Shown in pieces: positions 46,595 to 48,436 of a stretch of 64,000 nucleotides of DNA. Position numbers and translations under genes: made by a program. The stretch is taken from assembly GCF_015550425.1 (NCBI RefSeq), contig NZ_JADNAT010000015.1:29290-93289 (forward strand), given 5' to 3'. The stretch's first letter is position 1, and every line of letters begins with the position of its first letter. The stretch is from Clostridium sp. 1001275B_160808_H3. GTDB lineage: Bacteria; Bacillota; Clostridia; Clostridiales; Clostridiaceae. A model generated the notes under the pieces. It saw nothing but the letters and a program-made list of their open reading frames with translations. It ran no database searches and was not told where the DNA came from.

Positions 46595-47881
46595 TTAAGG
46601 TATTATGCGAGTTCTATCCCTAGGAATAAGCGATGCCTCTCTAACATTTTCTAAATTTAATAATTGAGATGTAATTCTTTCTAATCCTATTGCTAATCCT
46701 CCATGCTTTGGCATTCCATATTTAAATATATCTGTATAGCTTTCATAATTTTTTGGATTTAATCCTTTGCTTTTTATACTTTTCATCAACATATTATAGT
46801 CATTAATTCTCTGTCCGCCTGTTGTTATTTCAACACCTTTAAAAAGTAAATCAAAACTTCTAGTTCCATTTTCTTCAAAAGGCATTGTATACATCGGTCT
46901 CTTACTCCTTGGATAATTTGTTAAAAAGATAAAGTCACATCCATACTTTTCTTGTGCATATTTACATATTAGTTTTTCTCCTTCTGGGTCTAAATCTCCA
47001 TTTAAATCTTTCTTAGCATATACATTTTTTAATATTTCTATTGCCTCATTAAGTTCAATCCTCGGTATACTATCTCCTATTTTAGGCAAATTAACACTTA
47101 ATATTTCTAAATATTTTCTTCCTTTTTCTTCTATAGTCTTTAATATAAACTTTATTAATTCTTCCTCTAAGTTCATTATTTCAAACTCATCATCAATAAA
47201 TCCCATTTCCAAATCCATACTTATATATTCATTCAAATGTCTACTTGTATTATGCTGCTCAGCTCTATATACATGAGCAACTTCAAAAACCCTTTCAAAT
47301 CCAGCTCCTACCATCATTTGCTTATAAAACTGAGGACTTTGCGCAAGATAAGCAGTTTTTTCAAAATACTCTAATTTAAACACTTCTGTTCCACCTTCTG
47401 CTCCTTCAGCAACTATTTTAGGTGTAAATATTTCTGTAAATCCTCTATTTATTAAAAATTCTCTGAAGCTTTGAACCATTATATTTTGTATTTTAAATAT
47501 AGAATTAACTTTTTCATGTCTTATACTAATTGCTCTATTGTTTAATATAGTGTCTAAATTTAGATCTAACTCTTTTTTGTTTATTTCTATTGGAAGTTCC
47601 TGTGCTTCACTTATTATTTGAAATTTTTCAACTAATATTTCAAATGGATTTAGCGAATTATTACTATCTTTAGCTATTCCAATGATTGATACTACAGATT
47701 CAAGTTTTAATGAGTTTAAATCAATTTTATTATTTTCTATAACACATTGTACCAATCCAGATCTATCTCTTATTATCAAAAAAGTTATTGATTTTAACTT
47801 TCTTATTCTATATAACCATCCTTCTATTTTAATTTCTTTTTCTATAAAATTAGGAATATCATTAATTAATACTCTTTTCAT
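46595..47881 (-). CDS. aspS: Aspartyl-tRNA synthetase, archaeal-type (possibly non-discriminating)
   Basis: 428-residue class IIb synthetase. It has the N-terminal OB fold, class motif 2 with AHVYRAEQHNTSRHLNEY and motif 3 with GLAIGLERI, and lacks the large GAD insertion of the 590-residue bacterial AspRS, so it is the archaeal-type AspRS2. Such enzymes often charge both tRNA-Asp and tRNA-Asn, the latter then amidated by GatCAB. AsnRS is a close relative; the motif pattern and the Asp codon in the T-box favour AspRS. GatCAB genes are not adjacent. AAAGGA precedes ATG 47881. Confidence 0.85.
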   Translation of the reverse strand: MKRVLINDIPNFIEKEIKIEGWLYRIRKLKSITFLIIRDRSGLVQCVIENNKIDLNSLKLESVVSIIGIAKDSNNSLNPFEILVEKFQIISEAQELPIEINKKELDLNLDTILNNRAISIRHEKVNSIFKIQNIMVQSFREFLINRGFTEIFTPKIVAEGAEGGTEVFKLEYFEKTAYLAQSPQFYKQMMVGAGFERVFEVAHVYRAEQHNTSRHLNEYISMDLEMGFIDDEFEIMNLEEELIKFILKTIEEKGRKYLEILSVNLPKIGDSIPRIELNEAIEILKNVYAKKDLNGDLDPEGEKLICKYAQEKYGCDFIFLTNYPRSKRPMYTMPFEENGTRSFDLLFKGVEITTGGQRINDYNMLMKSIKSKGLNPKNYESYTDIFKYGMPKHGGLAIGLERITSQLLNLENVREASLIPRDRTRIIP

Positions 47882-47961: not shown

Positions 47962-48330
47962 GCCCCTTGAACAAAGTATGCTCAAGGGGCGATAAAACTT
48001 CGCGGTGCCACCCTTTTTTAACTTTATAAATATAAAATTAACTTTAACTTTAAGAAGTACATTTAAAGCGGGCCCACCTTAAATAAAAAAAGCCTCCACT
48101 CCATATAGGAGCGAAGGCTATGTTCACGGTACCATCCTAATTTAACTTAATTAAATAATTAAAAAGTTATCTCTATCTATTAACGCTAGAACACGTCTTA
48201 CTCTACTTAATTTCAAGTAAGCATCTCAAAGATGTCTTTCGATATCAATTTCTCATGAAGCTCTCACCATCCTTCACTCGCTGAAGATACTCTTTAAATA
48301 TCTACTCTTCTTTTCATCGATTTTTTCTTT
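47962..48330 (-). promoter_or_regulatory. T-box riboswitch (Asp) with one specifier stem and two expression platforms
   Basis: Minus strand. Stem I has a specifier bulge GAAA-GAC-A (codon GAC, Asp, at 48236-48234) flanked by stem halves GATAT/ATATC and AAAGA/TCTTT, aligned position by position with the Trp T-box at 37387. Platform 1: T-box AGGATGGTACCGTGAA (48138-48123) and a 12-bp terminator (48119-48091) with seven T. Platform 2: GGGTGGCACCGCG (48013-48001) and a 9-bp terminator GCCCCTTGA / TCAAGGGGC (47990-47962) with seven T. Only 70 bases separate them, including one hairpin (about 48083-48060), so there is no second Stem I. Confidence 0.93.
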
Positions 48331-48436
48331 TAATTTATATTATTCCCTTAATGAGTAAATGTCAATATAAATTACAAAAACTATTAAGAATATATTCAAA
48401 TCCTTTTACTAATAATAAAATTGGAGGTGATACATC

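Follow-up and report, generated by a model that had tools for sequence, protein, structure and literature searches.

An aspartate T-box leader in which a single Stem I precedes two platforms

The window analyzed here, a 64,000-nucleotide stretch of DNA from Clostridium sp. 1001275B_160808_H3, carries on its minus strand, between positions 48365 and 46595 and in this order, a promoter-like site, a T-box leader and the gene for a 428-residue protein. The leader, which is our subject, spans 48330-47962 (minus strand) and consists of one Stem I, the domain that reads transfer RNA (tRNA), followed by two T-box/antiterminator/terminator platforms. A first-pass annotation, made from the letters of this stretch, had described a single Stem I with a GAC specifier and two T-box platforms with their own terminators, and its coordinates and description were both right. 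The features are:

48337..48365, minus strand: promoter-like sequence TTGACA-17-TAATAT, matching the consensus at 10 of 12 positions
48217..48325, minus strand: single Stem I, the tRNA-reading domain, as located by a Stem I covariance model
48234..48236, minus strand: specifier GAC (Asp), in a GAAnGAC motif invariant in 40 aligned leaders
48125..48137, minus strand: T-box core 1, GGATGGTACCGTG, with bulge UGGU
48091..48119, minus strand: terminator 1, a hairpin of 12 base pairs (-21.8 kcal/mol) followed by a T run
48061..48084, minus strand: linker hairpin with the self-complementary loop hexamer GGGCCC (48075-48070)
48018..48041, minus strand: Stem III-like hairpin of platform 2, weak at -3.7 kcal/mol
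48001..48013, minus strand: T-box core 2, GGGTGGCACCGCG, with bulge UGGC
47962..47990, minus strand: terminator 2, a hairpin of 12 base pairs followed by a T run
46595..47881, minus strand: aspS2, encoding a non-discriminating aspartate--tRNA(Asn) ligase of 428 residues (NF003483 and TIGR00458)

The aspS2 product scored 589 bits against NF003483 (cut-off 353) and 431 bits against TIGR00458 (cut-off 368), both of them families named 'aspartate--tRNA(Asn) ligase', which we take to be the non-discriminating, archaeal-type enzyme and call aspS2 throughout. The GAC specifier agrees with the Asp-charging enzyme encoded downstream.

We consider it likely, judging from sequence comparison, that this leader is a transcriptional T-box riboswitch in which one tRNA-Asp-reading domain drives two expression platforms in series, as a double lock. 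A covariance search with the Rfam T-box model RF00230, which the annotation had proposed as a check, returned a full match at 48326-48104 (minus strand; 123.8 bits, gathering score 93) and a second match at 48053-47985 (minus strand), which at 33.0 bits lies below the gathering score and is partial, covering model positions 150-216 without Stem I. The ~70 bases between the T run of terminator 1 and core 2 hold the GGGCCC-loop hairpin and the weak Stem III-like hairpin, and the Stem I covariance model found no second Stem I between the platforms of the window, as the annotation had argued from the length of this linker. Two 12-base-pair terminators were observed where shuffled sequences gave 0.1, and the centroid fold of the stretch containing terminator 2 is the terminator 2 hairpin itself, at -21.8 kcal/mol. 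Promoter-like sites, in turn, are not enriched at the leader (3 observed against 3.2 in shuffles).

The layout recurs in clostridial aspS2 leaders

The leader was compared with those of aspS2 relatives from at least 80 loci and with 60 more upstream stretches, chosen from a one-family survey that took in 206 genomes, of which 107 had a match. Together with the window, and after 5 duplicates had been dropped, these gave 136 distinct leaders, a paralogous group included. Two T-box cores were found in 87 leaders, one in 45 and none in 4 (among them L034, L057 and L166); L186 is truncated by a contig end, and none of the 136 had more than two. Ten Bacillales loci and one from Symbiobacterium are among the single-core leaders. 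The two-platform layout is thus not peculiar to the genome of the window but recurs in many related clostridia, with core-to-core spacings of 48 to 311 nucleotides.

The Stem I covariance model, built on 40 leaders, was searched against the window and 92 loci, a set that covers all 87 two-core leaders. In 86 of the 87 it placed a Stem I ahead of core 1; the exception, L181, starts at a contig end 66 nucleotides before core 1. One leader (L189) has an additional weak match (11.9 bits, E 1.3), which lies further upstream still. Between the cores no Stem I was found in any of the 87, even at E values up to 10, and none of these leaders is therefore a full tandem T-box by this search.

Double cores were also sought in 40 genomes with a spaced pattern that allows for some of the spacings and core letters. 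Its 20 matches, spread over 18 genomes, comprise 17 aspS2 leaders, one Asn-reading paralogue and two places elsewhere in one genome. One Stem I followed by two platforms therefore looks characteristic of clostridial aspS2, and the layout is of a kind that has reportedly been named before (see below).

The specifier could be read by script in 61 of the two-core leaders and was GAC in 59 and AAC in 2, leaving 26 not read. Both AAC leaders (L075 and L078) come from another aspS2-like group, of lower similarity, which usually has a single, Asn-reading T-box: among 18 leaders sampled from this paralogous group, 13 had AAC, 4 had no readable specifier and 1 (L196) had another triplet. Seven leaders sampled from Bacillales and Symbiobacterium gave GAC in 6 cases, with 1 not read.

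Both platforms are maintained

The annotation had named the conservation of one platform alone as a result that would overturn its reading. The comparison across related clostridia showed that both are maintained. Antiterminator pairing was complete (7 of 7 pairs) in platform 1 of all 87 two-core leaders and in platform 2 of 82, with 6 of 7 pairs in the other 5. When the downstream sequence was shuffled (first 45 leaders), 7 pairs were reached in 20% and 6 in 66%.

In platform 1 the T-box flank and its downstream strand read AGGAGTG/CACTCCT in 45 leaders and AGAAGTG/CACTTCT in 20, a compensating change from AGGA..GTG/CACTCCT to AGAA..GTG/CACTTCT. Platform 2 has several versions (AGGGGCG/CGCCCCT 18, AGGGACG/CGTCCCT 12, AGGGGCA/TGCCCCT 8, AGAGGCG/CGCCTCT 4, plus others), and here GCG/CGC is replaced by ACG/CGT, GCA/TGC or ATG/CAT. 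Pairing across platforms was complete in just 11 and 17 of the 87 leaders, so that the two platforms are mostly insulated from each other. Each platform had a terminator hairpin of -9 kcal/mol or lower in 44 of the 45 leaders examined for it. The exceptions were platform 1 of L016, whose terminator looks broken, and platform 2 of L009, where the script's window missed a hairpin that is visible on inspection.

The annotation had also offered that the first platform might be a decayed relic. The compensating changes dispose of this for the window leader and for its clade, and only single cases look decayed, namely L016 and the single-core relatives L005, L169 and L170.

Bulge bases and tRNA acceptor ends

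The last base of each UGGN bulge should pair with the discriminator, base 73, of the tRNA that is read. Searched with tRNA patterns that fixed CCA but allowed any base at position 73, 35 genomes gave tRNA-Asp matches in 30 cases and tRNA-Asn matches in 33, and every matched copy ends in GCCA, which means G73. A looser tRNA-Asp pattern matched 9 of 12 genomes, the two nearest relatives G077 and G095 included, again with G73, and also picked up one copy in genome G018 that ends in GCTA; a tRNA-Asn search of the relatives used a pattern with a fixed G and was uninformative on base 73. At one place (G054:C2:151836-157019) 18 identical tRNA-Asp matches form a regular array, two per 600 bases, which may be a true array or an assembly artefact.

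G73 in the tRNAs of the relatives pairs with a bulge C and wobbles with a bulge U, so that both bulges of the window can pair with it. A wobble of this type is reported by TBDB for 46% of Trp T-boxes (PMC7778990). Across the 87 leaders the bases of the first and second bulge were U and U in 35, C and U in 26, U and C in 22, and C and C in 4, and on a leader tree of 86 rows the two bulge bases changed at least 10 and 15 times. We considered a rule that at least one bulge must carry U, since C/C occurs in 4 of 87 leaders only (p = 0.015 in a two-sided Fisher test), but a comparison of independent pairs on the tree gave no significant result, and the rule is not claimed.

A probable double lock and its alternatives

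The anatomy of the leader, the placement of Stem I, the retention of both antiterminators with compensating changes, the terminators and the predominance of aspS2 leaders among the double-core places support a double lock. In such a device, uncharged tRNA-Asp would bind the GAC specifier of Stem I, and its free GCCA end would pair with the UGGU bulge and hold antiterminator 1, so that polymerase could pass terminator 1 and transcribe the linker and platform 2. The same tRNA, or a replacement on Stem I, would then offer its free 3' end to UGGC and hold antiterminator 2. Charged tRNA would fail at either platform. Expression would thus require two successes, with less leak and a sharper response, and charging would be re-tested after a transcription delay of ~120 nucleotides. 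The proposal of the annotation, one tRNA-reading domain and two sequential decisions, therefore holds for anatomy and conservation (Stem I in 86 of 87 leaders, both antiterminators maintained), whereas its biochemistry, from readthrough at each platform to the hand-over of the acceptor end, is what we infer.

Several observations weigh against a double lock. A tRNA held on Stem I would have to serve platform 2 with platform 1 standing between the two. The folding energies of the antiterminators, -5.7 and -8.1 kcal/mol, are matched by shuffled sequence (z near 0), and the case for them therefore rests on conservation. The U/C assignment fluctuates across the platforms, which leaves no fixed division of labour between a strong and a weak one. 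Finally, two cores are not indispensable, because some relatives have one: L005 and L170 carry a core of the first type alone, and L169 a core of the second type alone, without a Stem I match.

These single-core relatives, together with the decayed terminator 1 of L016, are what would be expected if one platform alone sensed tRNA and the other terminator were a fixed leak-reducer that resembles a platform. A plain terminator needs neither a T-box bulge nor an antiterminator helix, however, and both are fully kept, with compensating changes, in 82 of 87 leaders, which makes this explanation unlikely.

A different possibility, raised in part by the annotation, is that each platform responds to an acceptor end or tRNA of its own, as would be the case if UGGU answered a tRNA with A73, or one platform tRNA-Asn. 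The window does have UGGU followed by UGGC, and the enzyme family, according to its name, charges both tRNA-Asp and tRNA-Asn. Against this, all matched copies of both tRNAs have G73; U and C swap between the platforms, and without a fixed assignment two acceptor-end specificities are unsupported; the 40 aligned leaders show (by eye) no AAC or AAU codon that overlaps the specifier in another frame, as a two-codon T-box would have; and the AAC-reading T-box belongs to a separate paralogue. We regard this explanation as very unlikely.

We likewise hold it to be very unlikely that a full tandem T-box once stood here, lost the second of its Stem I domains and left a leader that is neutral today: the repeated Stem III-like hairpin and platform are what partial duplication or loss would give, but no Stem I trace is left in any of the 87 linkers and both platforms are maintained, history and present use being separate questions.

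A linker hairpin with a self-complementary loop

The window hairpin (48084-48061), with GGGCCC at its tip, has a folding z of -1.6 against shuffled sequence, and many Clostridium leaders have a similar hairpin with loop hexamers such as GGGCCC, GAGCUC, UGGCCA or AGGCCU. Hairpins with a palindromic hexamer loop (at least 4 of 6 bases G or C, closing stem of at least 5 base pairs) were found in 25 of 87 linkers, where 0.35-0.61 were expected (maximum 4 in 500 trials).

A gap-free alignment was made of 34 hairpins, 29 palindromic and 5 non-palindromic at a like position, with the other 53 two-core leaders left out. At loop pairs 1-6, 2-5 and 3-4, 93.8% of cells were complementary, compared with 78.0% for shuffles, the first value being inflated because the rows were partly picked for palindromes; the same choice of rows bears on the loop covariation score (0.439 against 0.179 in shuffles). 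Two-sided changes in the loop numbered 13 against 3.2 in shuffles, while the number of further pair types in this alignment was not raised (5 against 4.5). Among 32 distinct rows, positions 2 and 5 hold GC in 22 and AU in 7, a pairing impossible within one hairpin, and positions 3 and 4, which cannot pair inside a single hairpin either, covary in one row. The stem covaries as well (71.0% of cells paired against 58.7%), and loop types changed at least 13 times on the leader tree. The hexamer lies 43-58 nucleotides from T-box 2 in 26 of the 34 leaders (34 and 111-168 in the others), but at widely varying distances from core 1 (46-194), which suggests that the hairpin goes with platform 2. Hairpins with like palindromic loops (TGGCCA, GCGCGC) also occur between platform 2 and aspS2 (L025:4900, L026:992, L032:4936, L035:4934 and L018:4930); in L032 and L035 the hairpin sits there instead of in the linker.

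Several explanations for this hairpin were discarded. It is not a common genomic repeat: a broader class (stem of at least 7 base pairs with a GC-rich palindrome) occurred 35 times in 894 kb of loci against 16, 22 and 16 in three shuffles, the excess lying in aspS2 leaders, and such hairpins numbered 11 in 800 kb taken from two carrier genomes, of which two (L210, AGGCCT; L231, GAGCTC) had leader-like letters and geometry, so that leader-like copies exist elsewhere by chance but are rare. Inspection by eye ruled out a mimic of the tRNA NCCA end or anticodon, neither of which is contained in GAGCUC and GGAUCC loops, as well as pairing of the loop with Stem I or terminator 2, for which matching changes are absent. 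The hairpin may be an operator for a DNA-binding protein, although the letters of its stem vary.

The hexamer covaries as if it paired with a second copy of itself, and the hairpin is therefore a possible RNA-RNA kissing site. We tentatively suggest, while holding it to be rather doubtful, that platform 2 in many Clostridium aspS2 leaders has its own recruiting module in place of Stem I, with two leader RNAs, for instance nascent RNAs from the same gene, kissing through their hexamer loops. In that case leader dimerization and tRNA charging would both govern the second decision, and the hairpin would be, to our knowledge, the first dimerization signal in a T-box leader. The hairpin with its covarying self-complementary hexamer is new to us, and no description of a T-box kissing loop was found in the literature searched, in which subscription papers are thinly covered. 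The RNA dimers of HIV-1 DIS and oskar mRNA (PMC7357161) also have a hairpin with a GC-rich self-complementary six-base loop, whereas the window hairpin, with its putative dimerization, lies in a bacterial leader between two transcription terminators.

Relation to known T-box systems

With the RF00230 transcriptional T-box the window leader shares a Stem I with specifier, a T-box bulge, an antiterminator/terminator and an aminoacyl-tRNA synthetase target, but it has two platforms after its one Stem I. T-boxes with duplicated terminator-antiterminator elements were reportedly named as a class by Vitreschak et al. in 2008. The window leader probably belongs to this class, whose reported layout it matches: one Stem I and then two complete platforms. 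No description of this layout was found in the literature searched, with the same thin coverage of subscription papers. Tandem T-boxes (e.g. of thrS and trpE) also place two terminators in series, but they repeat the sensor, whereas the window leader repeats the platform alone; the statement of the annotation that tandem T-boxes normally repeat the whole element is correct in general, but in the class with duplicated elements the terminator and antiterminator are what is reportedly repeated.

A 2025 survey describes tandem riboswitches as duplications of both sensor and platform and gives thrS as the sole synthetase gene with tandem T-boxes (PMC12452182). As this statement suggests, surveys that count aptamers can miss leaders such as the one described here. 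In Clostridium acetobutylicum a two-codon T-box (Saad et al. 2013, as relayed by PMC4052509) likewise precedes genes of the tRNA-dependent transamidation pathway, but the specifier loop of the window offers GAC alone. The clostridial aspS2 leaders offer, across a whole clade, a natural case of one tRNA-reading domain that has to serve a pair of switches, and in them the hand-over of a T-box tRNA between platforms, or a re-test of charging, can be asked about directly.

Other observations

The 136 leaders were also scanned for leader peptides, taken as ATG- or GTG-initiated open reading frames (ORFs) in the last 160 nucleotides whose residues 2-9 include 5 or more D or N. None was found in the 87 two-core leaders and 11 in the other 49 (L039, L041, L043, L046-L051, L054 and L062), that is, in ten Bacillales loci and one from Symbiobacterium. 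These ORFs lie ~60-120 nucleotides before the aspS2 match, behind a GGAGG- or GGGGG-type ribosome site, and start with M/V-D-D, followed mostly by D and then by N (e.g. MDDDDDDDNNN). Taking the start of the protein match as that of aspS2, 9 of the 11 pass it out of frame and 2 in frame. They look like ribosome-stalling leader peptides that would read codons for Asp and Asn and so give the aspS2 enzyme a second, different type of checkpoint; no paper on such aspS2 leader peptides was found in the literature searched.

The window contains a second T-box (37476-37245, minus strand; 110.2 bits), which lies upstream of a TrpP-type tryptophan transporter (PF17099).
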